DNA of 32,600 bases, from IMG/VR virus record IMGVR_UViG_3300037460_000138, positions 1 to 32,600 of that record; one strand, given 5' to 3'. The notes beneath the pieces are model-generated. The model was not told the origin of the DNA. It ran no database searches and worked only from the letters and a program-made list of their open reading frames with translations. The stretch comes from a virus. Below, piece by piece: positions 1,599-30,715 of this stretch. Made by a program: the position numbers and the translations under genes. Within the stretch, counting starts at the first letter, position 1, and the number at the start of each line of letters is the position of its first letter.

Positions 1599-1960
1599 GA
1601 TCTCGACGGGTCCTTGTGTGAGTACTTCCGATAGTCCGCAGTTATCTCTTCCCCCGCCAGTATGTCCCGTGCTGCGACATGATTCTCTCCAGACATCGTC
1701 AGACTAGCGTTGGGGGAGTGATTTAGGAAACACTCCGGGCCGAAGCAAACGTGGAAGTTACCATCTACGTCATTCCAGGAGTATTTGTAGACATCAGGCT
1801 TACAGCCTTCAGGTAGGGCTTCGTACTGCTCCGGCGTCAGCACTATCTGGGGCTCAGAGGTGACATCTCTAACCAGAGTTCCCGCTGGGATAAACTCAGC
1901 AGCGAAAACACCGAGGCCCTCTATTGCAGAAAGCGCAACGATTGTTCGGACGACCAACAT
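1583..1960 (-). CDS. SET-domain protein, putative protein-lysine methyltransferase
   Basis: A 125-residue minimal SET domain. SET enzymes transfer a methyl group from S-adenosylmethionine to lysine side chains of proteins. Visible landmarks, in order: the N-terminal GxG strand region GLGVFAAEFIPAGTLV (residues 15-30), the NHxxxN block FLNHSPNASL (78-87) matching the NHSCxPN SAM-binding motif, and VAARDILAGEEITADY (95-110), where AGEEIT-x-DY is the classic SET C-terminal signature including the catalytic Tyr. No pre- or post-SET cysteine clusters are present, as is usual for small bacterial and viral members. The ATG at 1960 overlaps the fibre stop (TAATG), so it is co-translated with the 2003-residue fibre. 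The substrate is unknown; the fibre, another virion protein or a host protein are all possible. Confidence 0.85.
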   Translation of the reverse strand: MLVVRTIVALSAIEGLGVFAAEFIPAGTLVRDVTSEPQIVLTPEQYEALPEGCKPDVYKYSWNDVDGNFHVCFGPECFLNHSPNASLTMSGENHVAARDILAGEEITADYRKYSHKDPSRSWLNN

Positions 1961-4900
1961 TATGGATTTATCCCAGATCCCCAGCAGTAGTAGACAGTTG
2001 CGCTTTCACGCCACACATTCACCACACCACCAGGATCAATCGTGATGCCACCCGCTGAATCTACCCTCGTAGTGCCATCTAGGACGTACAGGGTCGTACT
2101 AGCCCCCTCAGTCACCGTGTACAGGCCCGAAGTAAAGGCGTTGACGACAGTTGTCATACCATCCACCGGGAAGTCCAAATCAACGTTGGATGCCAGTGTT
2201 AGAGTACGAGCTGTTGACGAATCTTTGAACGCCATCTGGCCACAATGTGATGCTTCCAGTGTATCACTGACATTATCGTTAAATTTCCGGATAACATTGA
2301 AGCCAACATCCAGGCCGTGACCACTATGGGCGAGTATCTGTGCGCCACTGGTGTTACCAGTCCCGAAGTACTCCAGCGTTTGGAATGGGTAGACGCCACC
2401 GTAGCCAAGGAAGGTCGCACCACCCCCAATACTCTTAAACCCTTGCGTTCCGTTGAAGCGTATCTCAAATTCATCAGTCGCACCAGCAAGGTTCAGTCGG
2501 AATTCGCTGACTGCATTGTTCCAATCAAAGACTGCGTCGCCACCAGCAGTATTACCAAACCTGAGCTCAATAGCATCTCCGAGCTCAACATGGTCCGCCA
2601 TGACGAGAGCTCCTGCGTTCGTGCTAAATATCGCATTTGCGCCATCATGTAGGATATTAACGAAGTCGGTATCAACTGCACCGTTCTCGTATATGGTCAT
2701 GCCTCCAGTTTCCTGGATGCTCCATATAGTGTTGATACCTCTAATAATAGAGTAAATATGCCCAGAGGTTTGAAGCAATGACAGAGTTAGCGACGTTGGG
2801 AAGCAACTCCAGCTTGCTCGTTCAAGGCCAGCCACTTCCATCGTAATAGCACTAGCGATGGATCCATCAGATATTAACCCATCACCCTGTACCGAAGCAT
2901 CAAAGCGGTAGAAGTTTGCATTATTGAACAGCAGCCCTGCCGATGAGTTGCTGAGGTTGATATTAAAGACCGTAGCCGATACTGGGTCAATCTCAAGGTA
3001 CTGAGCATCAGTGGGGTCGTAGAAGCGGTGACGTAGCCCGTCGCGCCAGTTCCAAATCTGACTAGACGCTAAACTCTCTACCTCAAAGTCAACCCCGTCC
3101 CAGTCCATTGTAATGTCAGTGCCAGTACCGAACTGAATCTGTTCATTGTCCAGCAGCACGATGGGGGGAGTGAACCCACCTGATGCGTTCAGTGCGAAGC
3201 TAGTACCGTCATCCGCTGTGAACATAGGAGTCTGCGTAGCGTCATTTCGTACCCACCACTGACCCTGTGTCGGAACATTCGCGGCTGCTGCCACTCTTTC
3301 AACTTCGTAAATAACCTGAGAACACTCAAGATTGCCGACAATGTCGACAGTCTGGCCTTGAATGTCAATTTCAGTAATGACACTACCAGTGCGAAAGATC
3401 TGGAATACATTGAACGCTATTGCATCAGCGTCAGTATAGCCAGTTAGGAACAGAGTGCCAGCGTCAGCCCTCCAACGGTAGACCTTCTCGTTTACTGACG
3501 CATTGGTGTCGCGTAGCTCAATGTACGGAGCTGTGTTTTGAACTTCAAAGTTGCCATCAGTGAAGAGCGTAGAGCCATCCCACGTTAGCCCAGCTTCGCC
3601 CTCAATGTCGTTCGCTGTTACAGCACCGAAGGCGATCTGGTTATTCGTGATCGCACCACCAATCTCGGGGATGGTATCCGGGGGAGCAGCCCACGTTCCG
3701 TCAGCTCTCAGGAAGTTGGTCGTGCCGCCGCCCGATAAAGGAGCCAAGCCGTCAAGGGTACTAGTGAAGTTAGGCAGTATCGTGTTAGCTTGCAGTCCTG
3801 TCAGCTCAGCTACGATACCACCAGCCCCAGCGATATTTCCGAGTATGCGGTCATCTGATACTACGTTCTGTATCTTAGCATAGGTGACATTGTCATTGGT
3901 GATCTGTGCCGTCACTACCTGAGCCGCTAAGAGGCCAGCCCCTTGAGCTCCCAGCACAGTGTTCGCAGGGATAGCTAAATCTTGCGGGTCACCTGAACCA
4001 GCACTACGACTCTTAACTGTGTTCGCAGCCATGTCAGCAAGCTGGGAGTTCGCCACGGTGTTAGCGGGGATGGTGGCGACCTGGGAGCCAGAGCCGGGGC
4101 CAGCCGTGACGTCACCTGTTAGCTGTGTGATACCTGTGGTGTCGGGCGGGGTGGAGTAATTGCCAGTCTCGTCAAGGTAGTCTGTCGCTGCCCCTGCATT
4201 ACTAAGAGTCACACCGTTGACGCTCACACCTGTAATCGCAGCGTCAAGGTTGACAATGGGGTCAACGCCAGTGCCAGTGACGTTTATGTTCGTGCCACCA
4301 CTAACTGAGTCTACTTGGCCTCCGCCAGCAGGGACAGAGTATGCTCCTGTCTCATCTAGGTAGCTGGTCGCTGCCCCGGCAGTACTGAGGGTAACTCCGT
4401 TCACACTTACACCGAGGATGGCAGCATCAAGATTGACGATGGGGTCAGCCCCTGTACCCGACACATTGATGTTCGTACCACCACTAACACTGTCTACGAT
4501 GCCGCTACCAGCAGGAACTGAATAAGCTCCTGTCTCATCCAGATAGGCTGTCGCTGCCCCCGCGTTACTAAGAGTGACACCGTTGACACTAACACCGAGG
4601 ATAGCTGCGTCCAGATTAACTATAGGGTCAGCCGCAGTACCGGAGACATTGATGTTTGTGCCGCCACTGACCGAGGCAACTCCACTCGCAGATGCCCCAA
4701 ACAGTATGAGGATGTGACACTTAGCATTGCTGTCGGGGATAGTCCCACTGTTGCTCACAGTACCAGCTAGAGAGAACCAGCCGGTATTGTCAACATTAGC
4801 CGAGACATCAAAGAGGATGTACTTGCTGGCATCGTTGTCCTGTTGGAAGTATACGCGATCTCCAGCTGAAATAAAGCTCAAAATATTCTGTAAATCAACG

Positions 4901-7900
4901 CCATTGTCCGTTGTGGCGGATATAAAGAGCTCAGTTACGGACGCTGGGGTCGCATTGTCATAGCGAAGGTTGCCACTTCCGGGGTCAGCCTCAACTATAC
5001 TCGTCTGGAACCGATACGCAGCGATAATACTTGAGCCGCCCTGCACTTCCAGAAGATTATAGTCAACGCCAGTGTCATCTGTGAACATTGGGACGTTCGG
5101 AACGTCATCTCGTACCCAAAATTGTCCGTAGTCAGCAACGAAGGCGTCAGCAGCCGACCTTTCTTCCATGAAGAAGACCCCACCTTCCGTAGAGAGGTTG
5201 CCAAGGAAGATTCTAAGGTCAGTTTGGACATCTAGCTCCTGCCAAGCTGTGCCAGTTCGGTTAGCCCCCATGAGGAATGGGCCATTAGAGCCGCCATCAG
5301 TAACAGACTGAATAGCGAACCCGGCAAAGTTGTCCATTTTGATATAAGTGCGCTTCTCGTCTACCGCAGCGCCAGTTGTCCAAAGCTGCAAGAACGCTCC
5401 GCTGCCCTCGATGTCAACGAAGACTGCACCAGCAGAACGATGCCTGACACCTGTGATTTCAACCCACGCTGAACCGCTCCATCGTAACGTGGCATTGGTG
5501 ACAGTACCAGCTACGATGCTAGGCGGGACAGAGTACGCCCCTGTTTCATCTAGGTAGCTCGTAGCTGCTCCAGCGTTGCTGAGGGTCACACCGTTAACCG
5601 ACACACCCACGATGGCTGCATCTAGATTAACGATGGGGTCTACAGCAGTACCAGTGACATTGATGTTTGTGCCACCACCGACACTATCTACCTGACCAGT
5701 GTCAGGTGGGAGCGAGTATGCCCCTGCCTCGTTTAGATAATTAGTCGCAGCTCCAGCATTTGTCAGTGGTACGCTGTTGAATGACGGACCATCCAAATTA
5801 TTCGTTAGAGGATCGTTTGTTGTATCTAATCTCAGGTAGAGTACGTCAGCATCTGCTTCCTCTAGGTACGTGCCAGTGAGGTAGAGCTGCTGCCAGCGGC
5901 TGACGCCTCCCTCGTACCTATACGTCACACTACCTTGGGGAGCTATTGTAATCGGGCCACTATTCGCATTTTGGAATCTGTTGGCCGCGACACTGAGCAC
6001 ATCCTCGTTAGTAAACGTCATGGTGAACGCAGAGGTATTGATTATAGTTCGCTGGTCTCCATCTTGGGCGAAGCCAAAGCTAGATACTATACCTGTGATA
6101 TTGTATGCGCCGTCACTGTCCATGAGGACAATGGTCCGCATAGCGTTGTTCGGTGCTAGGCTCCAGTCATTGGTGTTCGCCAGGAGCTGGGCAGGAGACT
6201 CACTCCCGTAGGATATTGCCCCATCCAGTGTGAACCGCCCTGTCATCTGTAGCGAATGTACTAGAGTAGCACCGAACGATGCCATGCCTTCAATGCGAAC
6301 ATTGGCGAGGTCAGCAATCGTGCCGCCGTTCAGCAAGATGGCGAGGGAGTTAACCTTGAGGGACGCCACCTCAGACATCGCCAGCCCATCAATATCCAGC
6401 GCTCCTCCTGCACTATACAGGATATCTGAATACTCACCGGGGACGTTAGGCGTCCTCAGGCTAGGAGCAGAGTAAATAGCGAACCAGTTATTGGAGTGAG
6501 GCGTTGCGGCAGTCGTACCGAATGATATAGCATTGACATCAAACTGCATACCGATGTCTTGTGTGCCTGTGCTCGCGTGACGCCAGATCCATTCGTCTTG
6601 TGCGTTGGGCTCCAAGTATAGAGGGTTGCCGCCGACACCAAAGAAGGTAGACCACACCATCGCCGATTGCGCCGACGCCCAGCCATGGATGATGTCCGGG
6701 TTAGCCAGCGTGTTGCCGAACATCGCATAGTTGTTGTCGTTCAGGTGCCAGTCACCATTACCAAACTCTGACTGTGCTGTTCCAATATTATTAAGGAACC
6801 GAGCATTGCTGGCGGCAGCGATGTTAGATCGTAAGGCTGCCTTCGGTATATTACCGCCGAATCCCAGAATGTCCACATCAACCGCATACAGAGCAGTTGC
6901 AGTCTCTGCGCCAGCCCCCGGCTGGAAGATGCCGACCGCTGGGTTCCTATACCATAGCCCTCGTATAGCGCCGAGGTTTGCAGTAGAGCCAGCGACTGTG
7001 CTGAATGTCGGAGCACATGATACAGCGGTCTGATTGGTCTTTGTCAGTACCGCACCAGAGATAGAAGTTCTGGTTAGTGGTGCGAAGCTTACCCCTGTCG
7101 TACCCGGCGTCGTGCTCGTCCCTGCTGTTTCGCGATGATGTTGTAGGCCGACGTTTATGACCAACGCTGATGGGAGATTGAAGTTGCCGTCGTTCCTGAT
7201 TATAGACAACTCGTTGATAAAGGTGACCGCACTAAAGCCCGGAGCAAGCCCGATATTGTAGAGGTTGCTGTCTGAGAAGATAGCTGGTATGAACAGAGCA
7301 GTCGCAACATCAAAGACCGCTGCCGTGTTTAAGAAGCCTCCGATATAGCTCGCGTTGATAGCAACAGCCGGACGCCATCGCATCGCGTATTGCTCACCGG
7401 GGGTCGTATTACTAAAGGTGTCGTACAGGATCTCCATGGGAGACTCAGACTCTACGCGCCCTTTATCAGGCGAGCCGCTGCTCCCCGATAGAGTCAGGAC
7501 CGTACCTGCGACGGTTCCCCCAAAGATAAGACCAGCAAGGGTTCGCACCCCTGTGTTCTCCACCCAGTCAGCGCCGTCCCACCTCAGCGTACTGCTCACC
7601 ACTGTTCCCGGTGTTACCCCGGCAGGGATGTCTACCCATGTGACGGTGCCGGCTCCATCAGTCTGCATTATCTGATCAAGCGCACCGTCAGCAAGGGGAA
7701 GGATAAAGCTGGTGAACTCAACCCAGACGCCGCCTCCTGCATCCCAGCGTAAGATGGAGTTGTCAACCGTACCGGCCGGGATCGTCGCACCGCCGCTGGC
7801 CAGACGTACTAGATTTATAGCATCAGGGCTGTAGTAGAGTCCTGCTCCGGCGCCGGGATCGTATAGCAGGTGATAGATACGCCAGCGATCGACGTTCTGC

Positions 7901-7971
7901 GGCAGATCCGCAGCCGTCTTAATGACATACATATTGTCATTAGGAAGTAGGCTTGAAAACCTGTCGGTCAC
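1960..7971 (-). CDS. Giant tail fibre / receptor-binding structural protein, repeat-rich (2003 aa)
   Basis: The largest gene in the window. Composition is Gly, Ala, Thr, Asn, Ser and Val rich and poor in Cys and Lys, as in trimeric beta-helical tail fibres. It contains four full copies of a ~60-residue module (SVSGGTNINVSGTG..DPIVNLDAAI, then GVSVNGVTLSNAGAAT.YLDETGAYS): one near residues 757-815 and three in tandem near 1097-1277, plus a partial copy at about 728-757. Three shorter LRW[DS]G..WVE.TG motifs occur near the N-terminus and near residue 830. Two WVR[ND]D...PMFT.D.G motifs recur near residues 960 and 1580. The C-terminal ~150 residues resemble a beta-roll with no S74 chaperone motif. 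The start is GTG at 7971 with a GAGGAG ribosome site inside the end of the upstream gene. Role: host recognition; the receptor is unknown. Confidence 0.85.
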   Translation of the reverse strand: MTDRFSSLLPNDNMYVIKTAADLPQNVDRWRIYHLLYDPGAGAGLYYSPDAINLVRLASGGATIPAGTVDNSILRWDAGGGVWVEFTSFILPLADGALDQIMQTDGAGTVTWVDIPAGVTPGTVVSSTLRWDGADWVENTGVRTLAGLIFGGTVAGTVLTLSGSSGSPDKGRVESESPMEILYDTFSNTTPGEQYAMRWRPAVAINASYIGGFLNTAAVFDVATALFIPAIFSDSNLYNIGLAPGFSAVTFINELSIIRNDGNFNLPSALVINVGLQHHRETAGTSTTPGTTGVSFAPLTRTSISGAVLTKTNQTAVSCAPTFSTVAGSTANLGAIRGLWYRNPAVGIFQPGAGAETATALYAVDVDILGFGGNIPKAALRSNIAAASNARFLNNIGTAQSEFGNGDWHLNDNNYAMFGNTLANPDIIHGWASAQSAMVWSTFFGVGGNPLYLEPNAQDEWIWRHASTGTQDIGMQFDVNAISFGTTAATPHSNNWFAIYSAPSLRTPNVPGEYSDILYSAGGALDIDGLAMSEVASLKVNSLAILLNGGTIADLANVRIEGMASFGATLVHSLQMTGRFTLDGAISYGSESPAQLLANTNDWSLAPNNAMRTIVLMDSDGAYNITGIVSSFGFAQDGDQRTIINTSAFTMTFTNEDVLSVAANRFQNANSGPITIAPQGSVTYRYEGGVSRWQQLYLTGTYLEEADADVLYLRLDTTNDPLTNNLDGPSFNSVPLTNAGAATNYLNEAGAYSLPPDTGQVDSVGGGTNINVTGTAVDPIVNLDAAIVGVSVNGVTLSNAGAATSYLDETGAYSVPPSIVAGTVTNATLRWSGSAWVEITGVRHRSAGAVFVDIEGSGAFLQLWTTGAAVDEKRTYIKMDNFAGFAIQSVTDGGSNGPFLMGANRTGTAWQELDVQTDLRIFLGNLSTEGGVFFMEERSAADAFVADYGQFWVRDDVPNVPMFTDDTGVDYNLLEVQGGSSIIAAYRFQTSIVEADPGSGNLRYDNATPASVTELFISATTDNGVDLQNILSFISAGDRVYFQQDNDASKYILFDVSANVDNTGWFSLAGTVSNSGTIPDSNAKCHILILFGASASGVASVSGGTNINVSGTAADPIVNLDAAILGVSVNGVTLSNAGAATAYLDETGAYSVPAGSGIVDSVSGGTNINVSGTGADPIVNLDAAILGVSVNGVTLSTAGAATSYLDETGAYSVPAGGGQVDSVSGGTNINVTGTGVDPIVNLDAAITGVSVNGVTLSNAGAATDYLDETGNYSTPPDTTGITQLTGDVTAGPGSGSQVATIPANTVANSQLADMAANTVKSRSAGSGDPQDLAIPANTVLGAQGAGLLAAQVVTAQITNDNVTYAKIQNVVSDDRILGNIAGAGGIVAELTGLQANTILPNFTSTLDGLAPLSGGGTTNFLRADGTWAAPPDTIPEIGGAITNNQIAFGAVTANDIEGEAGLTWDGSTLFTDGNFEVQNTAPYIELRDTNASVNEKVYRWRADAGTLFLTGYTDADAIAFNVFQIFRTGSVITEIDIQGQTVDIVGNLECSQVIYEVERVAAAANVPTQGQWWVRNDATQTPMFTADDGTSFALNASGGFTPPIVLLDNEQIQFGTGTDITMDWDGVDFEVESLASSQIWNWRDGLRHRFYDPTDAQYLEIDPVSATVFNINLSNSSAGLLFNNANFYRFDASVQGDGLISDGSIASAITMEVAGLERASWSCFPTSLTLSLLQTSGHIYSIIRGINTIWSIQETGGMTIYENGAVDTDFVNILHDGANAIFSTNAGALVMADHVELGDAIELRFGNTAGGDAVFDWNNAVSEFRLNLAGATDEFEIRFNGTQGFKSIGGGATFLGYGGVYPFQTLEYFGTGNTSGAQILAHSGHGLDVGFNVIRKFNDNVSDTLEASHCGQMAFKDSSTARTLTLASNVDLDFPVDGMTTVVNAFTSGLYTVTEGASTTLYVLDGTTRVDSAGGITIDPGGVVNVWRESATVYYCWGSGINP
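4143..4683 (-). repeat. Three tandem ~180-bp coding repeats in the giant fibre
   Basis: Three consecutive units (about 4143-4320, 4321-4500, 4501-4683) each encode one copy of the SGGTNINV...DPIVNLDAAI...GVSVNGVTLS.AGAAT.YLDETG.YS module. Protein identity is high, but the DNA copies differ at many third codon positions (for example gacgctcacacctgt versus gacactaacaccgag). They are therefore diverged duplications kept under protein-level selection, not a recent expansion or assembly artefact. Confidence 0.85.
5525..5793 (-). repeat. Fourth full and one partial copy of the fibre module
   Basis: About 5525-5703 encodes the full module (VGGGTNINVTGTAVDPIVN ... YLDETGAYSVPP). 5704-5793 encodes a half unit (SFNSVPLTNAGAATNYLNEAG) containing only the second part. 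It is separated from the three-unit array by about 840 bases of non-repeat coding sequence, as expected for a modular fibre shaft with intervening domains. Confidence 0.8.
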
Positions 7972-14531: not shown

Positions 14532-15267
14532 GAAAAAGAAGGCAAGTAGCGAAACGGGCATAGTGTCCTGGCAAGACATGATGGCCGACGAAGCCAAGGA
14601 AGTTGCTAAGACAGAGCGACCTAGCGTTGGTAGGATATCACTACAGTCGGGGGTTATGACGTACGAAGGTACGCCTGTGCCTGACAATGAGATGATTTGC
14701 ATTGTGGCTGACGTGATCGAAGAGCAAGTGTACTACGATCAACCATACGAGGCTGGGGTGGTGAACCCTCCCGCTTGCTTCGCCTATGGTGAACCGGGTA
14801 GCGGACTTCATAGCCACGAGGCTGTGCCAGACCGTGACTGGGAGAAGTGGGGCAACTGCGATACCTGCATCATGAACCAGTGGCGCAAGCCTCCTAAGAA
14901 GGGCAAGCCCTGTGGGAATCGGCGCAAGCTGGCTATCCTTCCCGCTGGTGACGATATGACTCCGGCTGATTACGAGAAGGCTGAAATAGCCATACTGAGC
15001 CTGCCAGTCATGTCCGTTAAGAACTGGGGGACGTATGTGAATATACTGAACGCCCAGTTCCAGCGACCAAGTTGGGGGATGCTTACCAAGATAATGGTGA
15101 GACCTGACCCTAAGTCACAGTTCAGGGTACACTTTGAGCACGTAGTCCCACTGTCGGATGATATCATTGGTGCTGTCCACGCACGGAGGGACTTATGCCG
15201 AAGCACCTTGATGGTGCCATATGACCTCACCCCCAAGGAGGAGACAGAAGACAGCGGGAAATACTAG
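14524..15267 (+). CDS. Putative phage ssDNA-binding-like Cys-rich protein (247 aa)
   Basis: A 247-residue protein just upstream of the polymerase, where single-stranded DNA-binding proteins often lie. It has a Lys-rich N-terminus (MTKKKKASSETGIVSWQDM), a central cysteine set (PPACFAYGE at ~82, NCDTCIMNQW at ~117-126, GKPCGNRRKLAIL at ~135) that could bind zinc, and beta strands after it. The C-terminus is acidic (TPKEETEDSGKY), like the acidic tails of phage SSBs. The C...CxxC...GKPC..RR pattern is widespread in phages as an uncharacterised family. SSB function is an inference from position, zinc-type cysteines and the acidic tail. Its stop overlaps the polymerase GTG (TAGTG). Confidence 0.6.
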   Translation: MTKKKKASSETGIVSWQDMMADEAKEVAKTERPSVGRISLQSGVMTYEGTPVPDNEMICIVADVIEEQVYYDQPYEAGVVNPPACFAYGEPGSGLHSHEAVPDRDWEKWGNCDTCIMNQWRKPPKKGKPCGNRRKLAILPAGDDMTPADYEKAEIAILSLPVMSVKNWGTYVNILNAQFQRPSWGMLTKIMVRPDPKSQFRVHFEHVVPLSDDIIGAVHARRDLCRSTLMVPYDLTPKEETEDSGKY

Positions 15268-17048
15268 TGATAACGCTGGACTTCGAAACGGAAGCCATAG
15301 GCCCGAACCCCCTATGGCTTCCACCTCGCCCCGTCGGGCTGGCCGAGCACATTGACGGCCAGACCCCCGAATATTACACTGGTGATGCCATGAAACAAGT
15401 GTGGCTTCACCATATGTCCCACGACATACCTGTCCTCGGACATAATATGCAGTTTGACCTCGCAGTAGGCTTGAAGTGGCTGGGAGGAGACCGGCCCCAC
15501 TGGAGCAAAGTACATGACACAATGTACCTTCTTTTCCTGGATGACCCGTATAGTCACAGCCTTTCGCTCAAGCCCAGCGCCGAGCGCTACCTTGACCTCC
15601 CACCGGATGAACAGGATGAACTCATTGAGTGGATTCTCGCACACGTCCCAGAGGCAACAAGGAAAACAGCAGGAGCTTTTATATCGTACGCTCCAGTCGC
15701 TCTTGTCGCCCCGTACGCGATCGGTGATGTGGTGCGTACGCGACGCCTCTTCGATCTTCTCCATCCTAAGGTCCCTACGGAGCCTTATGACCGAGAGCGT
15801 CGGCTTGCCCCTCACATGGCGGAAAGTAGCCGAGTTGGAATACGAACTGATGTCGAACGACTCGGTGCTGACGTTGAAATTTGCACTGATGGGCTCGCAC
15901 AAGTGGAACAAAAGATCTACAAGAGACTCGGATGCGGTGAAATTAAACTAGTCGGGGCGCAGCTCGCTAATGCGCTTGACAATGCAGGGGTGATGGATCA
16001 GTGGTTCTACACTCCTACAGGCAAGCGAAGCACCGCTAAGGACAATCTAATCATGGGCATAAATCCTGCCCATACCGATTTACTGGATCTCTTAGCATAC
16101 AGGTCAACGATGGCAACCTGCCTGAATACCTTTATGACTAAGTGGCTCGCATTTGCAGAGGAGGATGGCCGTGTCCACACAGAATGGAACCAAGTTGCTA
16201 ACGACGAAGGGGGTCACTCCGGGGCGCGTACTGGGCGATTGTCTAGCGCACGGCCAAACTTTCAAAATCCTCCTAATCCCTTTGACTGGACAATTCCCGA
16301 CGGCCTGCCTCCATTGCCGAACATGCGGAGCTATCTACTCCCTGAGCCAGGACACATATGGATCAAACGTGACTTTTCAAGCCAGGAGATCAGGATACTC
16401 GCCCATTTCGAGGATGGGGCGCTTCTGGCTGCGTATTGTGCGAACCCTTTCCTGGATCCCCACACGATGGCGCAGGAACTTATACAGCAGATTACCACGT
16501 TCCTATATGCCCGACCGGACGTCAAAATAACAGGCTTCAGCATTATCTACGGCAGCGGCGTACCCGGCCTTGCTCAACAGCTAAAGAGACCGCGCTCAGA
16601 AGCCTATGTGCTGCGCGAAGCCTACTTTAAGGCTATGCCAGCGGCGGCGCAACTCGCTGCGTCTACGCGCCGTCGAGGGGCCTCTGGTGGCACAATCCGC
16701 ACTTGGGGTGGACGGTACTACCCTGTGGAGCCACCGAAAATAATCAAGGGTCGTTTGAGAACCTGGGAGTACAAACTGCTGAACTATTTGATTCAGGGCA
16801 GCGCCGGGGACCAGACGAAGCAGGTAGTCTGCGATTGGTGGGAGGACTACAAAGACCCTGAGACCGTCTTTATGGCGACCATACATGATGAAGTCAATGC
16901 TTCCGTACCGGAGGAGATTGCCACGCAGGAAATGTTACAGCTTCGCGATGCCATGGACCAAGACTTGTTTGACTGTCCAATGCGTAGCGAGGGATACCAC
17001 GGCCCGAATTGGGGTAGTTTGATAAAAACGGAGAATGATTATGAGTAA
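15267..17048 (+). CDS. DNA polymerase, family A, with 3'-5' exonuclease
   Basis: A 593-residue replicative polymerase. The N-terminal DnaQ-like exonuclease has LDFETE (Asp5, Glu7), GHNMQFD (Asp64) and YAIGDVVRT (Asp154). The polymerase domain has RTGRLSS..PNFQN, motif A KRDFSSQEIRILAH (Asp369), the O-helix VKITGFSIIYG (Lys420, Phe424, Tyr428) and motif C ATIHDEV (Asp541). All catalytic residues are present, so it should be active and proofreading. The residue equivalent to E. coli Pol I position 762 is Phe. There is no 5'-3' exonuclease domain, as in T7-type enzymes. The start is GTG 15267, coupled to the upstream stop. It presumably works with the primase-helicase at 9988-12075. Confidence 0.95.
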   Translation: MITLDFETEAIGPNPLWLPPRPVGLAEHIDGQTPEYYTGDAMKQVWLHHMSHDIPVLGHNMQFDLAVGLKWLGGDRPHWSKVHDTMYLLFLDDPYSHSLSLKPSAERYLDLPPDEQDELIEWILAHVPEATRKTAGAFISYAPVALVAPYAIGDVVRTRRLFDLLHPKVPTEPYDRERRLAPHMAESSRVGIRTDVERLGADVEICTDGLAQVEQKIYKRLGCGEIKLVGAQLANALDNAGVMDQWFYTPTGKRSTAKDNLIMGINPAHTDLLDLLAYRSTMATCLNTFMTKWLAFAEEDGRVHTEWNQVANDEGGHSGARTGRLSSARPNFQNPPNPFDWTIPDGLPPLPNMRSYLLPEPGHIWIKRDFSSQEIRILAHFEDGALLAAYCANPFLDPHTMAQELIQQITTFLYARPDVKITGFSIIYGSGVPGLAQQLKRPRSEAYVLREAYFKAMPAAAQLAASTRRRGASGGTIRTWGGRYYPVEPPKIIKGRLRTWEYKLLNYLIQGSAGDQTKQVVCDWWEDYKDPETVFMATIHDEVNASVPEEIATQEMLQLRDAMDQDLFDCPMRSEGYHGPNWGSLIKTENDYE

Positions 17049-17721: not shown

Positions 17722-18020
17722 AAAGCAGTACAGAAGGAAAGGCTTCAACTTATGCTGAGAGTATCGGTTACATATCACTTAAAGTCCGGGTCACGGGACA
17801 GCGGGGATGGCCAGACCATGTGTTCATTAATCCTTACGGGTATCACGTATGGATTGAGTTTAAGAAGGACAAGAAGAAGCCTACTAAACTTCAAGACCAC
17901 CGACTCAAAACGCTTACTGAGCAAGGTACTGAAGCGCATTGGACGGACAACCTTACCAGAGCTAAGGAGATACTAGATGCAGCCGTGGACACCACACGAC
18001 TACCAGCTCCGCGCAATTAA
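17709..18020 (+). CDS. VRR-NUC nuclease
   Basis: GTG 17709 is the best start (VSVLESSTEGKAST), 13 bases inside the end of the Cas4-like gene. The 103-residue protein is a stand-alone VRR-NUC domain: an N-terminal Glu helix, GWPDHVFI (Asp36), IEFKKDKKKP (Glu50, Lys52) and QDHRLKTLTEQG (about 62-73). VRR-NUC enzymes are PD-(D/E)XK structure-selective nucleases, some acting on branched DNA such as Holliday junctions. A phage role in resolving replication or recombination intermediates before packaging is a reasonable inference. It overlaps the helicase gene by 44 bases. Confidence 0.85.
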   Translation: MSVLESSTEGKASTYAESIGYISLKVRVTGQRGWPDHVFINPYGYHVWIEFKKDKKKPTKLQDHRLKTLTEQGTEAHWTDNLTRAKEILDAAVDTTRLPAPRN

Positions 18021-19332
18021 GCTCCTATTATCGCAGGGGAGTGGTGGACTGTTGCTAGACCCCGGACTTGGGAAGACGGCTGTGGCACTCGCAGCCTACA
18101 AGATTCTTAAGAGCAAAGGGATGGCTCCTCGCGGTATGCTAGTCATCGCTCCCCTGCGTCCCTGTTACGATGTATGGCCCAGTGAAATAGAGAAGTGGGC
18201 TGAATTTAATGAGTTGACCTATGCAGTCATGCACGGAGCGGACAAGAAGGCCATGCTAGACTTGGATGTTGACCTGCATATTATCAACCCCGAAGGGCTG
18301 GCATGGCTCTTTAATCCACTAGCGACTCACCGTAAGGATTGGACCATCCTATGCGTAGACGAGAGCACCAAATTCAAAAACAGCACGACCAAACGCTTCA
18401 AGCTAATGAGGAAGAGATTCCCCACATTTGCTCGGAAGTGGATACTAACAGGAACCCCGATGCCACTAGGCCTCCAAGACCTATTCGGACAGATTTTCAT
18501 ATTAGACGACGGGGCAGCTCTTGGGAGGTATATTACCCACTTCAGGACTAAGTTCTTCTTTACTGAGCCGTGGAACCCGTACCAGTACTTCCCCAAGGAA
18601 GGTGCGTTCCAAGAAGTTATAAGCAGAATAGACCCGTATGTTCTACGCCTAGCAGCGAAGGACTACTTAGATATGCCCCCGGTCATACAAGAAACAATTT
18701 ATATTGACCTCCCCCCTGACGCAAGGAGTAAGTACCGTGACATTGAAGAAGACTTCATCACCCAAGTCGAGGCAGGAACCATTGTCGCAGCAAATACCGC
18801 TGTCGCTGGAGGTAAGTGCAGACAGATCTGTAACGGCGCTCTCTATATCAACAAAGAGCACGAATGGGAGCCCATCCATGCCGCCAAACTGGAAGCATTG
18901 GGAGATCTTATTGAACAACTCGGAGGAGCTCCCACACTTGTTATGTATGAGTTCAATCACGACAAAGCAAGAATACTTGGACGCTACGGTTCTGATCTCC
19001 CTGTTCTCGGAGGAGGCACGTCGGCTGGACAGTCTCACCAGTACATACAGGAATTTAATGATGGCAAGCACCCGTTGATGATCTGCCACCCTGCGAGCAT
19101 GGCCCACGGACTGAACTTGCAGGAGGCGTGTCACCACATCATATGGTTCGGCATAACGTGGAACCTTGAGCACTATGACCAATCAGTAGCACGAGTCTAC
19201 CGGCAAGGTCAGAAGTTCCCCGTTATGGTGTATCACATACTGGCCCGTGACACGTTAGACGATCGAGTCATGGACGTATTAAAGGAGAAAGACCACAACC
19301 AACAGATGTTGTTCAAAAGTTTGAGTAAATAA
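17977..19332 (+). CDS. SNF2-family DNA helicase/translocase (SF2)
   Basis: A 451-residue helicase starting at ATG 17977 with AAGGAGATACTAG upstream. Motifs in order: Q-region HDYQ, motif I DPGLGKT (28-34), Ia VIAPL, II VDESTKF (from Asp128, with DEST instead of DEAH), III LTGTP, V GLNLQEACHHIIWF, and VI QSVARVYRQGQ (about 402-412). Both RecA-like lobes are present. Phage SNF2 proteins paired with VRR-NUC genes are common, and the 44-base overlap suggests the nuclease and motor work as a pair on branched or forked DNA. It lacks chromatin-type accessory domains. Confidence 0.9.
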   Translation: MQPWTPHDYQLRAIKLLLSQGSGGLLLDPGLGKTAVALAAYKILKSKGMAPRGMLVIAPLRPCYDVWPSEIEKWAEFNELTYAVMHGADKKAMLDLDVDLHIINPEGLAWLFNPLATHRKDWTILCVDESTKFKNSTTKRFKLMRKRFPTFARKWILTGTPMPLGLQDLFGQIFILDDGAALGRYITHFRTKFFFTEPWNPYQYFPKEGAFQEVISRIDPYVLRLAAKDYLDMPPVIQETIYIDLPPDARSKYRDIEEDFITQVEAGTIVAANTAVAGGKCRQICNGALYINKEHEWEPIHAAKLEALGDLIEQLGGAPTLVMYEFNHDKARILGRYGSDLPVLGGGTSAGQSHQYIQEFNDGKHPLMICHPASMAHGLNLQEACHHIIWFGITWNLEHYDQSVARVYRQGQKFPVMVYHILARDTLDDRVMDVLKEKDHNQQMLFKSLSK

Positions 19333-19731: not shown

Positions 19732-19772
19732 CGAGCTCGGCTGGTCACTGACTGGTCGAGCTCGTTTTGTTT
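19732..19772 (+). terminator. Rho-independent terminator
   Basis: An 8-bp perfect stem CGAGCTCG (19732-19739 with 19757-19764), whose 17-base loop can pair further, is followed by TTTTGTTT. It separates the small basic protein gene from the DNA-modification cluster. Confidence 0.8.
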
Positions 19773-19786
19773 ATGGAGATGACTCT

Positions 19787-20611
19787 ATGAATTTATACAT
19801 TATGACAAGAGGGCGCATAGGCGCTCAGCGGACGTACACTTCCATCCCCTACTCATGGCGGGATAAATGCTTCCTCGTAGTACCAGAGGACGAGCATGAA
19901 CAGCACTACACTCTTGGCGGGGATGATGACTTCGGTAAGAAAATTCCGACCATCGCTGTGCCAGCCCACGTTGACAACTACAGCAAGAAAATGAAGTGGA
20001 TCATTGAAGACGGCATGGAGGACGGGGAGGAATGCTGTTGCATCATAGATGATGACCTTGTGTTCAGCCAACAATGGATTAAACCAGATGGAAAAATTGG
20101 ACTCAAAACAGTTGAAGGAGCAGACACCGAACGACTCCTTACCCTTTTCGCTTATATGGAGCTTCTTTTGGAGGACACGGCTCTGGTTGGGGTACACCCC
20201 CGACAGATGGGGCATGTTCAAAAGCCTCCGTATGTTGACAATGGAAAGGTTATCTGCGTACAGGGAATTAATCGTCGTCTTGTGGGAGATATTCCTTATC
20301 TTGACAAGTTTCCTATACTTTCCGATGTGGTGCTTAACGCGACTCTCTTAGCACGAGGGCAGGGGAACAAAATACTCACCACTTGGTTCCAGGACTGGGG
20401 GAGCTGTAATGCTCCGGGTGGATGCTCACTATACCGAACGCCTGAAATGCAAGCCGAAGCCTGTTACTGGCTAGAGGAGCGATTTGGGCCGTACATCAAG
20501 GCTGTAGAAAAGGAGGCCAAAAGTGGATGGTTGGGAGGAAAGCGCGTTGACTTTAGAGGTCAATGGAAGAAGTTATACAAGGCCGGAGCTGCTGGCTTAT
20601 TGGATATCTGA
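19787..20611 (+). CDS. Glycosyltransferase, GT-A, GREB1/TET-associated (TAGT-like), DNA-modification candidate
   Basis: A 274-residue protein with a GT-A start (NLYIMTRGRIGAQRTYTSIP, where xYxxxRGRxxxxxT is typical of the TAGT group), a VVPEDEHEQHY strand at 31-41 and the metal-binding IIDDDLVF (Asp88-Asp90). GWL near the end and FQDWGSCNAPGGCSLYRT (about 203-220) may form the acceptor site. The family includes the kinetoplastid base-J glucosyltransferase and GREB1, and phage members were predicted to glycosylate hydroxymethyl-pyrimidines in DNA. Here it is followed, with overlapping reading frames, by an amino acid:DNA transferase, and then by a dUMP hydroxymethylase candidate. The predicted role is therefore sugar transfer onto 5-hydroxymethyluracil. 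No TET/JBP dioxygenase is present, so the acceptor would come from the nucleotide pool. Family assignment is by motif reading only. Confidence 0.7.
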   Translation: MNLYIMTRGRIGAQRTYTSIPYSWRDKCFLVVPEDEHEQHYTLGGDDDFGKKIPTIAVPAHVDNYSKKMKWIIEDGMEDGEECCCIIDDDLVFSQQWIKPDGKIGLKTVEGADTERLLTLFAYMELLLEDTALVGVHPRQMGHVQKPPYVDNGKVICVQGINRRLVGDIPYLDKFPILSDVVLNATLLARGQGNKILTTWFQDWGSCNAPGGCSLYRTPEMQAEACYWLEERFGPYIKAVEKEAKSGWLGGKRVDFRGQWKKLYKAGAAGLLDI

Positions 20612-21392
20612 ACGTGAACGAATTAGACTTGCCAGAAAACGGGGAGAAGATAAGCCTTGGTCCGATGACCATGTCTTTCAAAACACCTATTTCTGCAACG
20701 TTCACCGAGAGGATGATAAAGTTACGCGATGGATCAGGGAAAATTATACTCCAGATCTCTTCGGAGAGTACTATGAAGTTGCGATTGTTGCAGCCCGTAT
20801 CTTTAACAGACCGGAAACTTTAGAGGCCATTAAGTTCCATCTAGTCCCTAGCCCACACATGAACCTATGGCAAGTCCTTACGGATATGCAAGAAGCCAAG
20901 GAGCAAATTTGGAGCGGGGCTTACCTGATCACAACTCATGGCCGTAAGATGTCTAAGATAGACTACTGCACAGAGTTGCTTCAGAACTGCATCGACATCA
21001 CCCCTGTCCACATGGGGGAGCCCACTTGCGAAGGGTACTTCTACGCCTTCAAGCGTATTGACGGATTGGGTAGCTTCCTCGCTGCCCAGATAGTGGCTGA
21101 CCTAAAGAACACCAAAGGTCACCCGCTGGAGGGAGCACCTGATTGGATGTACTTCAGTGCTCCCGGCCCCGGTTCGCTGCGTGGGCTGTCATGGTTCCAC
21201 CATAAGCACATCACGAACAGTATGTACCAGGACGCCATAACGGAAGTTAAGAGCTATGTGGAGAATCGGATAGGCGGGTCTATGTTCACTATGTGTATGC
21301 AGGATCTGCAGAACTGTATGTGTGAGTTTGATAAGTATTGTCGGGTCTTAACGGGTACAGGGCGGAGCAAGCGCAAATATGCCGGTTCCTGA
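20523..21392 (+). CDS. Amino acid:DNA transferase / aGPT-Pplase-type base hypermodification enzyme
   Basis: GTG 20523 is the start: a perfect AGGAGG (20511-20516) lies 6 bases upstream, inside the glycosyltransferase gene, giving an 89-base overlap. The 289-residue protein carries the hallmarks of the DNA base hypermodification family: WISERERIRLARKRGEDKPW (27-46), FCNVHREDDKVTRWIREN (57-74), an HhH-like IDGLGSFLAAQIVADL (179-194), PGPGSLRGLSW (214-224) and the C-terminal QDLQNCMCEFDKY (260-272). In thymidine-hypermodified phages (SP10, ViI, M6, W-14), enzymes of this type displace pyrophosphate from phosphorylated 5-hydroxymethyl-dU in DNA with an amino acid or amine. Which nucleophile is used here is unknown. 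It is not a P-loop kinase: no Walker A is visible. Confidence 0.8.
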   Translation: MDGWEESALTLEVNGRSYTRPELLAYWISERERIRLARKRGEDKPWSDDHVFQNTYFCNVHREDDKVTRWIRENYTPDLFGEYYEVAIVAARIFNRPETLEAIKFHLVPSPHMNLWQVLTDMQEAKEQIWSGAYLITTHGRKMSKIDYCTELLQNCIDITPVHMGEPTCEGYFYAFKRIDGLGSFLAAQIVADLKNTKGHPLEGAPDWMYFSAPGPGSLRGLSWFHHKHITNSMYQDAITEVKSYVENRIGGSMFTMCMQDLQNCMCEFDKYCRVLTGTGRSKRKYAGS

Positions 21393-21403
21393 GCTAAAAC
21401 GGC

Positions 21404-21482
21404 CCCCTCGACTGCCGCAGGACGCAAAATCGCAGCATGGCCTTGGCCTTGGTATGGCCTTTTTATTCTGCCAGTCGAGGGG
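21404..21482. other. Structured intergenic element closed by an 11-bp inverted repeat
   Basis: CCCCTCGACTG (21404-21414) pairs perfectly with CAGTCGAGGGG (21472-21482). The 57-base interior contains repeated TGGCC/CCTTGG tracts and a T-run (21459-21465) after GGTATGGCC. It could be a terminator with a complex fold, an mRNA-processing or stability element, or a small RNA. The exact role is not resolvable by eye. Confidence 0.5.
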
Positions 21483-21516
21483 CTTACAATAACACTATAT
21501 AAAACAAGGGGTTACA

Positions 21517-22488
21517 GTGTCAATTATCACAATAACAGGTCGTAATGTCCCACAGGCGTACATAGAAGGTCTGTGGGCATTCCGTACGAGCGCCAAATCG
21601 GAGGATACGAGGAACGGGGAGGCTATGGTGCTCCCCGCCCCTACGTTCTTAACCATACAATTTCCTGAGGAGCGTCTACTCAATTGCCCGGTACGGAACG
21701 CCAACCCGTTCTTCCACTGTATGGAGTTTGTGTGGATGATGGCTGGGTCTAATGAAGTGGATTGGTTATCACAATTTAACAGTAGGATGATAGATTATGC
21801 TGACAGTAACATTCTCCGTGGAGCCTATGGATGGAGGTGGGCCAACCCTTCGCCGCAAATTCACGATACCATATCTTTATTACAAGGCGATGCCGGAACA
21901 CGTCAGGCTGTCCTTGCAATGTGGGATCCAGTTTACGATGGTCATAGGGCAAAGACCAGCGACCGTCCATGTAATACACATATCTATTTCAGGGTAGACG
22001 ACATGGACTGTCTTAACATGACAGTATGCAACCGAAGCAATGACTTCATCTGGGGTATGATGGGGGCGAACGCTGTCCACATGACCTTGCTTCAGGAGCT
22101 CATCGCAAGCGCGGCCGGATTCAAGCTAGGGATGTATCATGTGTTCAGCAATAACTGCCACATCTACACAGGCCTCCCCCACTTTCACGATGTGTATAAC
22201 TCAGTGCTTCCGGTAGACGTCTATAAGGGGGAGGGCCGCTGTGAAAACCTAATGCCTCTACTGGCAGGGTGCGACTACAAGACCTTTATGCTGGAGTGCG
22301 AGGATTTCCTACAGGGGAGGAAAACCTTTAAGAGCGAGTGGCTCCAACACGTCGCGTACCCTATGCAGAAAGCCTACCTCGACAAAAAGCGAAGGTGGCA
22401 TTGGATCAATGAAATCATGGCCTTGGATTGGCATCGGGTATGCGAAGACTGGGCAACAAGACTGGAAGATAGACGCAAACTCAATTAA
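21517..22488 (+). CDS. Thymidylate synthase homologue, predicted dUMP 5-hydroxymethylase
   Basis: GTG 21517 follows AAGGGG. The 323-residue protein has the ThyA fold landmarks: NPFFHCMEFVWMMAGSNEVD (63-82), RGAYGWRW (101-108), the catalytic Cys152 in SDRPCNTHIYF, NRSNDFIWGMMGANAVHMTLLQ (172-193) and SNNCHIYTGL (211-220). Asn185 in GANAVH aligns with the Asn of thymidylate synthase that selects dUMP; dCMP hydroxymethylases have Asp there. Using methylene-tetrahydrofolate it would make either dTMP or 5-hydroxymethyl-dUMP. The two cannot be told apart by motif alone, but the two adjacent base-modifying enzymes favour hydroxymethylation. It is the third gene of the modification cluster and probably supplies the 5-hmdU that the other two act on. 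Confidence 0.8.
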   Translation: MSIITITGRNVPQAYIEGLWAFRTSAKSEDTRNGEAMVLPAPTFLTIQFPEERLLNCPVRNANPFFHCMEFVWMMAGSNEVDWLSQFNSRMIDYADSNILRGAYGWRWANPSPQIHDTISLLQGDAGTRQAVLAMWDPVYDGHRAKTSDRPCNTHIYFRVDDMDCLNMTVCNRSNDFIWGMMGANAVHMTLLQELIASAAGFKLGMYHVFSNNCHIYTGLPHFHDVYNSVLPVDVYKGEGRCENLMPLLAGCDYKTFMLECEDFLQGRKTFKSEWLQHVAYPMQKAYLDKKRRWHWINEIMALDWHRVCEDWATRLEDRRKLN

Positions 22489-29212: not shown

Positions 29213-30300
29213 CATACTCTCCTGTAGTCAACGACCATGAAGCCGTTGATCGTACCAGCCACCATGTCAAGGTTTTCCTGAGCCAAGACACCAAAGTCCG
29301 AGCCTCCTGTGATCCAATCCCACAAGTACCATCGGCGACCATGTGCATCACCTGCGTACCTAATGTTCTTCTTCAGCCTAGCATCCGACATGGACATAGC
29401 CGAAGCACCAGCGTTCAAGACACTCTGTGTCATGGCTTGCTGTGCGCTGAAGGCATCCATCTCAGCAGAGTAGGAGTCCTGCGCTGCCCCGGTCATGTCT
29501 GCACCACCAACGACCCCAGCCGTATTGAATCCTGGCATTCCCGGCATACCGATTTGCTGGCCACTGAGGATAGCATTGATTTCATTAAGGCTGAAGCCTC
29601 GTTGCTGCATCTCCTCTGCAATCTGCTGCTGGCGGAGGGTAGTGTTGAAGCCTCCGGCTGCAACGTCCATGCCCTGCATCCTGCTGCCTTCTGCGCCGGC
29701 TCCAATAGTCGCACCATATTGAGCCTGCTGATAAGCATCTGTCTCTTCATTGCCTAGGTTCATCATGGCATTGTCGTAAGCCTCGTCCCCCGGCCTCAAG
29801 CCTTGGTTGCGAAGCTGGGACTCAGTAGCTTCTCTCTTCTGGGCAAAGCGAGGGTCCAACCGGGAAGTGGACCGACCATACAGGGCATCTTCTGCACTAT
29901 CACTGTAGTAGTCACCACCTTCAATACGATCCCCCATTTCACCAAACTGCGACCAGTCCATCGTATCGCCAAACTCTTCCTGTGCCCGACCCATCAAGCT
30001 ACCGGCAAGTTCACTACGCTGACGCGTGATGCCTAGCTGTTGATCAAGCGCAGCCTGTTGATCAGGGTTAAGGCTGATGTTCTGTACCCAGCCACCTTCC
30101 GTACCGCCTTCCATCCTGCGGGTCTCGGGGTTCCATGTTCCAGCCGTACCCTCAAGTTCCTCCCATGTAAGGTCACCCCACGGAGTATGCTGATCAGGTC
30201 GGTTAGCCCGAGTCTGAAGCTCCAGCATTTCAAGATTGCCAGCGGCAGTTTCTTGAGCAGCGGCAGCGTAGTCAGGCGCTTTGGGAGCGGATTTGCCCAT
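29212..30300 (-). CDS. Internal virion-type protein with S74-like C-terminal motif (362 aa)
   Basis: Starts MGKSAPKAPDYAAAAQETAA, an opening typical of a group of podovirus virion proteins, with AAGGAACGAAG as ribosome site. The body is Gln, Ala, Gly, Met rich and helical (NPDQQAALDQQLGITRQRSE). The last 58 residues begin SDARLKKNIRYAGD (from about 305), with YLWDW, FGVLAQE and VDYRRV. SDxRLKxNI is the signature of the peptidase S74 / endosialidase intramolecular chaperone, where the Ser-Lys dyad cuts the chaperone off; both residues are present, but the domain is shorter than usual. Its first 29 bases overlap the GNAT gene. Confidence 0.75.
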   Translation of the reverse strand: MGKSAPKAPDYAAAAQETAAGNLEMLELQTRANRPDQHTPWGDLTWEELEGTAGTWNPETRRMEGGTEGGWVQNISLNPDQQAALDQQLGITRQRSELAGSLMGRAQEEFGDTMDWSQFGEMGDRIEGGDYYSDSAEDALYGRSTSRLDPRFAQKREATESQLRNQGLRPGDEAYDNAMMNLGNEETDAYQQAQYGATIGAGAEGSRMQGMDVAAGGFNTTLRQQQIAEEMQQRGFSLNEINAILSGQQIGMPGMPGFNTAGVVGGADMTGAAQDSYSAEMDAFSAQQAMTQSVLNAGASAMSMSDARLKKNIRYAGDAHGRRWYLWDWITGGSDFGVLAQENLDMVAGTINGFMVVDYRRV

Positions 30301-30715
30301 CTTCGTTCCTTATGTATTTGCAGTTCTCTTTGCGGTACTCAGTAATCACAAAGTCAATGCCCTGTTCAAAGCCATCTTTGAATCTGAAGATCTCTACAAA
30401 TCCAATGTGCTTAATGAACCTTATGGCTCGTTCGTTACACGCTGGAGTGATCCCTAGGATGACGCCCTTGTCGCACTGGTTGAAGGCGTAGTCAAAGACA
30501 GCCTCTCTGAAGTCATGCTTAAAAATAATCATATCGTCAACAGCTATGTGGATATGAACACTGTTGTGTGACCAATGGTCAAATGTCACAGCACCCACCA
30601 GCTTCTTATTCCGGTAGGCAACGATGCCCTTGCTGTCAGCTGACTGGACACACTCAGCTCTCGCCGCAATCCAGTCCCACTCTTCCTTACTGGTCATGGG
30701 GTGGATGGTAATCAT
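30272..30715 (-). CDS. GNAT-family N-acetyltransferase
   Basis: A 147-residue protein starting MITIHPMTSKEEWDWIAARA at 30715, overlapping the nozzle gene stop as ATGA. GNAT landmarks: GIVAYRNKKLVGAVTFD (29-45, strands 2-3), VHIHIAVDD (53-61), a helix with FREAVFDYAFNQ, GVILGITPACNERAIRFIKHIGFVE (about 84-108, where NERAIRFIKHIGF is the motif B end) and FRFKDG. It would transfer an acetyl group from acetyl-CoA to an unknown amine. Similar GNATs lie among virion genes in other podoviruses. Target could be a virion or host protein. Confidence 0.8.
   Translation of the reverse strand: MITIHPMTSKEEWDWIAARAECVQSADSKGIVAYRNKKLVGAVTFDHWSHNSVHIHIAVDDMIIFKHDFREAVFDYAFNQCDKGVILGITPACNERAIRFIKHIGFVEIFRFKDGFEQGIDFVITEYRKENCKYIRNEDGQIRSQSA

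Follow-up and report, generated by a model that had tools for sequence, protein, structure and literature searches.

Thymidine hypermodification cassettes of the M6 type (PMC9476957), as in M6 and PaMx11, contain a DNA kinase for 5-hydroxymethyl-deoxyuridine (5-hmdU), its helical partner protein HMUDK_hel, a pyrimidine hydroxymethylase, an amino acid:DNA transferase (ADDT) and tailoring enzymes; in M6 these families are separate genes (gp51 ADDT, gp54 kinase, gp55 HMUDK_hel, gp56 Nmad5 and gp58, of thymidylate synthase (TS) type). The TAGT glycosyltransferases (PF20691), a second described group, include the beta-glucosyl-HMC-alpha-glucosyltransferases of T2 and T6, which act on 5-hydroxymethylcytosine (5-hmC; PMC13216743). 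Here we analyse three consecutive rightward genes in a 32,600-base stretch of viral DNA (IMG/VR virus record IMGVR_UViG_3300037460_000138, positions 1-32,600; hereafter the window), which constitute a thymidine hypermodification cassette in a glycosyltransferase (GT) version, with the kinase's helical partner retained, an oddity that extends beyond the window. As judged from the sequences, the cluster probably makes O-glycosylated 5-hmdU in phage DNA, a thymidine hypermodification resembling base J. Its open reading frames (ORFs) are the following:

19787-20611, plus strand: GT, predicted DNA glycosyltransferase, TAGT-like, with a GT-A fold and the DXD-type DDD at residues 88-90 (phrog_842, TAGT matches of homologues, AlphaFold2/Foldseek)
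20523-21392, plus strand: HEL, an HMUDK_hel protein (PF18723, formerly aGPT-Pplase1) with a predicted helix-hairpin-helix (HhH) DNA-glycosylase-like fold and a GTG start (Pfam, AlphaFold2, VIA-align)
21517-22488, plus strand: TS, predicted thymidylate-synthase-type dUMP hydroxymethylase with Cys152 and Asn185 (PF00303, phrog_5131)

As in M6 and PaMx11, HMUDK_hel and a TS-type hydroxymethylase lie by a family A polymerase, and a modifying enzyme stands directly 5' of HMUDK_hel. Unlike in those phages, a TAGT-type GT fills the kinase slot, and the window family lacks the kinase, the ADDT and the radical SAM, PLP and FAD genes for tailoring. The kinase system for 5-hmdU DNA consists of HMUDK_hel and a P-loop kinase; the window holds the former, with the GT in place of the kinase.

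Assignment of the three genes

The GT matched phrog_842 (beta-glucosyl-HMC-alpha-glucosyltransferase) with E=2.4e-19 and scored 12 bits against Pfam TAGT, under the cut-off of 27.5; 62 of its 74 aligned homologues matched TAGT at E<=0.01, and by sequence it is probably a divergent member of the TAGT group. Its AlphaFold2 model (pLDDT 93.3), for which Foldseek returned GnT-I, POMGnT1 and nucleotidyltransferases (RmlA), combines a GT-A fold with the DXD metal/nucleotide-sugar motif (D88-D90), and these three residues are identical in 110/110 homologues. The protein shares with the TAGT enzymes the glycosyltransferase group (by phrog_842 and by its homologues), the DXD motif and the tie to DNA base modification, and differs from their systems in its pairing with HMUDK_hel, in a predicted 5-hmdU substrate supplied by a TS homologue, and in that no TET dioxygenase or cytosine methylase is seen. 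We infer that it targets hydroxymethyl pyrimidine DNA, with 5-hmdU as the predicted base.

The TS protein reached 57.7 bits against PF00303 and 249.6 bits against phrog_5131. Its nearest phage relatives are the hydroxymethylases of the M6/YuA/PaMx11 type, its best match in the PDB is a CMP 5-hydroxymethylase, and it is predicted to be a hydroxymethylase, not a thymidylate synthase. Both the catalytic Cys152 and the U-specific Asn185 are identical in 156/156 homologues. This last residue bears on the possibility that the GT acts on 5-hmC, or on a target other than DNA such as the capsid or the host surface, with HEL and TS forming a separate system. Phage glycosyltransferases may have such other targets, and the TAGT enzymes of T2 and T6 do use 5-hmC; nevertheless, the U-type Asn185 throughout the TS family, the failure to find a cytosine methylase or TET protein among the window's main ORFs, and the tight linkage of the GT gene to HEL and TS, with an 89-bp overlap between the GT and HEL genes, make this quite unlikely.

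A preliminary description of this DNA had taken the second gene for an ADDT, and the cluster for one combining a GT with such a transferase. HEL instead matches Pfam HMUDK_hel with 121.2 bits (cut-off 25, E=7e-35, positions 6-276 of 281), and both stretches quoted in that description, FCNVHREDDKVTRW and QDLQNCMCEFDKY, are present in it. As an ADDT (PF18724) HEL has no Pfam match, and among its 91 aligned homologues, taken singly, the best reaches E=0.054. The Arg cluster [ER]RRx[FY]R occurs in 0/91 HEL sequences compared with 8/15 ADDT sequences, and R93, R97, R98 and R101 are invariant in the ADDT alignment. By its family match, HEL is to be read as HMUDK_hel, the helical partner family of the 5-hmdU DNA kinase, and not as ADDT. 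The profile comparison that the preliminary description had proposed recovers HMUDK_hel, no ADDT, and a GT that is below the TAGT threshold while matching phrog_842. What stands of the original reading is a thymidine (5-hmdU) modification cluster with a GT and without a kinase; the amino acid:DNA transferase does not. The other features it quoted, namely DDD at residues 88-90, Cys152 and Asn185, are all present, and they exceed chance, because they are invariant across the 110 GT and 156 TS homologues.

Sequence-profile searches found no solved homologue of either HEL or the GT. When the AlphaFold2 model of HEL (pLDDT 93.6) was compared by VIA-align, the best match was PaMx11 gp46/PUGT, a structurally solved glycine transferase (Z 10.2), followed by DUF2419 and HhH DNA glycosylases of the OGG/AlkA type (Z 9.8-7; Tm1821, Z 9.5), over spans of 170-217 residues. 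The segment IDGLGSFLAAQIVADL resembles a helix-hairpin-helix, and the invariant D207 lies ~24 residues further on, a distance that would correspond to the one typical of the Asp in glycosylases. A regular expression for the HhH-like GxGxF matched no sequence in the HEL or ADDT family and was not used. Residues N59, R62, D65, N95, Y134, K145, D207, R220, C267, E268 and K271 are kept in kinase-partnered and GT-partnered HEL proteins alike, and no residue distinguishes the two types.

This pattern is relevant to the idea that HEL is an enzyme that follows the GT and works on the base once it carries the sugar, be it as transferase, ligase or glycosylase, which would yield a doubly modified base. 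Its predicted fold, common to gp46/PUGT and the DNA glycosylases, and its retention of an invariant Asp, a Lys and the CExDKY motif speak for such a role. A sugar-specific catalytic role is nonetheless unlikely, because the same residues are conserved alongside a kinase partner; none is specific to one type, and the ADDT Arg motif is lacking. The related proposal in the preliminary description, an ADDT homologue working on a glycosylated base, has lost its basis, since ADDT was never found together with a GT.

Kinase and glycosyltransferase as alternative partners

For a wider view, homologues of HEL and GT were gathered from viral and prokaryotic contigs, in which HEL, GT, kinase, ADDT and TS were then scored by iterated profiles. 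Of the 181 non-redundant loci, 99 carry GT with HEL and 38 carry HEL with kinase, and no locus carries both GT and kinase; ADDT is confined to kinase-bearing loci (23/23). Either kinase or GT lies directly 5' of HEL, and HEL directly 5' of TS, with the order GT-HEL-TS counted 80 times and kinase-HEL-TS 28 times. Dozens of independent viral contigs share the gene order of the window. Of the loci retrieved through HEL that include 2.5 kb or more of upstream sequence, 38 have the GT only, 23 the kinase only, 27 neither and none both (Fisher P=1.7e-7, a value computed over related loci that are not independent). In a HEL tree built by a quick method, with Shimodaira-Hasegawa-like approximate likelihood ratio test (SH-aLRT) support only, the partner labels require at least 12 changes, and in the window's 42-row group the kinase rows L051 and L048 branch from among GT rows. 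The exchange of GT for kinase suggests that phages mix and match the parts with which they disguise their DNA.

We also considered fused HEL-kinase proteins as a proof of contact between the two; no fused ORF was present in the 181 loci, and in ViI and PhiW-14, which have known thymidine hypermodifications, HMUDK_hel and kinase are separate genes tens of kb apart. In two loci that have HEL and neither TAGT nor kinase, a gene 5' of HEL matches GT-B (Glyco_transf_4) weakly and could be a third type of partner (L040 6237-7466 and L050 6689-8002). In a metagenome-assembled genome of Eremiobacterota (L106 6772-7983), an HMUDK_hel gene lies immediately 3' of a gene for DpdA, of the deazapurine-in-DNA system. 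A further set of bacterial contigs (L107-L115 and L127-L131) carries HMUDK_hel, with or without TS, and neither kinase nor GT; aGPT-Pplase domains have been predicted to be defence genes (PMC13092281).

Searches of the window turned up neither a kinase for 5-hmdU nor an ADDT or a TET/JBP protein, which bears out the preliminary description on the kinase and TET/JBP as far as this partial record reaches. That description had allowed for a kinase outside the window, and the corresponding full alternative is that the standard M6/ViI kinase-ADDT pathway operates with its kinase and ADDT on the missing part of the genome, the GT adding an extra sugar. The record is indeed incomplete, lacking ~10 kb in comparison with a close, collinear 40.9-kb relative (G011), and the distance between kinase and HEL in ViI and PhiW-14 shows that the two need not be neighbours. 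We searched whole records with a 26-sequence kinase profile and Pfam ADDT. Neither gene was found over the full length of 31 records carrying the trio (most 37-44 kb, up to 59.7 kb), among them G011 and the complete 50.8-kb genome of the Brevibacterium phage LuckyBarnes; the positive controls M6 and MW202557 gave strong matches (kinase E ~1e-60; ADDT E 1e-48 and 1e-39, the M6 value being 2.3e-48). One record (G043) has a 12.8-bit partial match in a 496-aa ORF, which we regard as chance. Taken with the 0/181 co-occurrence of GT and kinase, these searches render a distant kinase-ADDT pathway highly improbable.

Cultured phages present the same two arrangements. LuckyBarnes encodes TS, two TAGT GTs and HMUDK_hel (gp38-gp41), the same kinds of gene as the window in a different order and with two GT copies; it is annotated as having a predicted dCMP-hydroxymethylase and glycosyltransferases, and HMUDK_hel is left hypothetical. 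Among phages of Microbacterium foliorum, a P-loop nucleotide kinase precedes HMUDK_hel in Golden, which has no TAGT. In Quartz, Neferthena and Pajaza, HMUDK_hel is accompanied by a TAGT-type protein (under the cut-off in Pajaza) and there is no kinase match, the GT lying a few kb from HMUDK_hel and not adjoining it. Pfam confirms a protein of TS type in Golden and Quartz, and the annotation gives one for Neferthena and Pajaza. In public records the 5-hmdU/P-loop kinases of M6 (gp54), Golden (gp55) and similar phages are labelled 'terminase small subunit'.

A cluster of the same gene kinds, in one region near the DNA polymerase, has been described in HTVC023P-type pelagiphages, where TS, aG/PT-PPlase1 and sometimes a beta-glucosyl-HMC-alpha-glucosyltransferase occur together (PMC9599517, 2022). 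The available portion of that report took the co-location as broadening the system and makes no mention of the absence of kinase and ADDT, of the mutual exclusion of kinase and GT, or of a swap. Nor did we find a published account of the kinase-for-glycosyltransferase exchange in the literature searched, which excludes the main primary papers on these families.

A predicted glycosylated base

In the route that we consider probable, the TS homologue would turn dUMP into 5-hydroxymethyl-dUMP, host or phage kinases would raise this to the triphosphate, and the phage family A polymerase would incorporate it. HEL, as a helix-hairpin-helix glycosylase-like protein, would then bind the DNA, flip out selected 5-hmdU bases and present them, presumably in a complex, to the enzyme encoded beside it. 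In M6-like phages this enzyme would be the kinase, yielding 5-phosphomethyl-deoxyuridine (5-PmdU) for the amino-acid chemistry of ADDT; in the window it would be the GT-A enzyme in the same genomic slot, moving a presumed sugar from a nucleotide sugar, probably host-derived, onto the hydroxymethyl group. HEL would be the recognition partner shared by both, and the modified DNA may be protected from host nucleases. The predicted product is of the same type as base J (beta-D-glucosyl-hydroxymethyluracil) of kinetoplastids, a glycosylated 5-hmU, with the difference that base J arises from oxidation of thymine in DNA by JBP, whereas the 5-hmdU of the window would be synthesised at the nucleotide level. 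Among phages, SP-15 DNA bears glucosylated dihydroxypentyluracil (PMC5977210).

Several observations weigh against this route. Upstream of the 27 HEL genes that have sufficient upstream sequence and neither partner, a weak GT-B candidate appears in just two viral loci. The circular phage MW202897 carries GT and TS and no HEL, and the T-even TAGT enzymes are reported to work without HEL, so HEL is not required by every such GT. As for its fold, VIA-align Z values near 10 are not decisive for a mostly helical protein, and hhalign of HEL with the ADDT and HhH-GPD profiles aligned the HhH-like motif at low probabilities that constitute no proof. It is also conceivable that HEL catalyses a reaction of its own, given the invariant Asp after the HhH-like motif, as in glycosylases.

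One could go further and suppose, with somewhat less confidence than in the route itself, that HMUDK_hel, far from being a kinase domain, descends from DNA glycosylases and is a general module for presenting 5-hmdU DNA to interchangeable partners (P-loop kinase, GT-A and perhaps GT-B), and that the window family makes glycosylated 5-hmdU, an undescribed counterpart of base J in bacterial viruses. If true, a widespread branch of phage DNA modification would put a sugar instead of an amino acid on 5-hmdU, and a known pathway's helper protein would serve as a part for base recognition that can be reused; a 5-hmdU-specific glycosyltransferase with its presenting module would moreover be useful for labelling 5-hmU in DNA. 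Cultured SEA-PHAGES isolates allow a direct test of the model, since those of the kinase type (Golden) and the GT type (Quartz, Neferthena and Pajaza) share the host Microbacterium foliorum.

Other features of the window

The cluster is accompanied by the following elements:

15267-17048, plus strand: DNA polymerase family A, in the replication module beside the cluster (PF00476, E=3.6e-44)
17977-19332, plus strand: SNF2-type helicase 5' of the cluster (PF00176, E=2.2e-23)
19732-19764, plus strand: terminator-like stem-loop of 15 bp, immediately 5' of GT
20510-20516, plus strand: Shine-Dalgarno-like AAGGAGG of the HEL gene, within the GT gene, at a position kept in close relatives with an ATG or GTG start
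21404-21482, plus strand: inverted repeat between HEL and TS, with 11-bp arms at 21404-21414 and 21472-21482 and a folding energy of -40 kcal/mol

The GTG start of HEL at 20523, where relatives use ATG, lies 6 nt past the AAGGAGG. Scans of the window for Rfam families and tRNA genes gave no matches, and the HEL-TS inverted repeat belongs to no known Rfam family; the corresponding intergenic regions of relatives also fold strongly, but their sequence differs from that of the window. Elsewhere, the minus strand encodes a small SET-domain protein (1583-1960; PF00856, E=1.5e-11) adjoining a giant ORF (1960-7971), whose 2003-aa product matches nothing in Pfam or PHROG. In the late region on the minus strand, a GNAT/acyl-CoA N-acyltransferase (30272-30715; phrog_4470), with no link to the modification cluster, is kept in the 40.9-kb relative.

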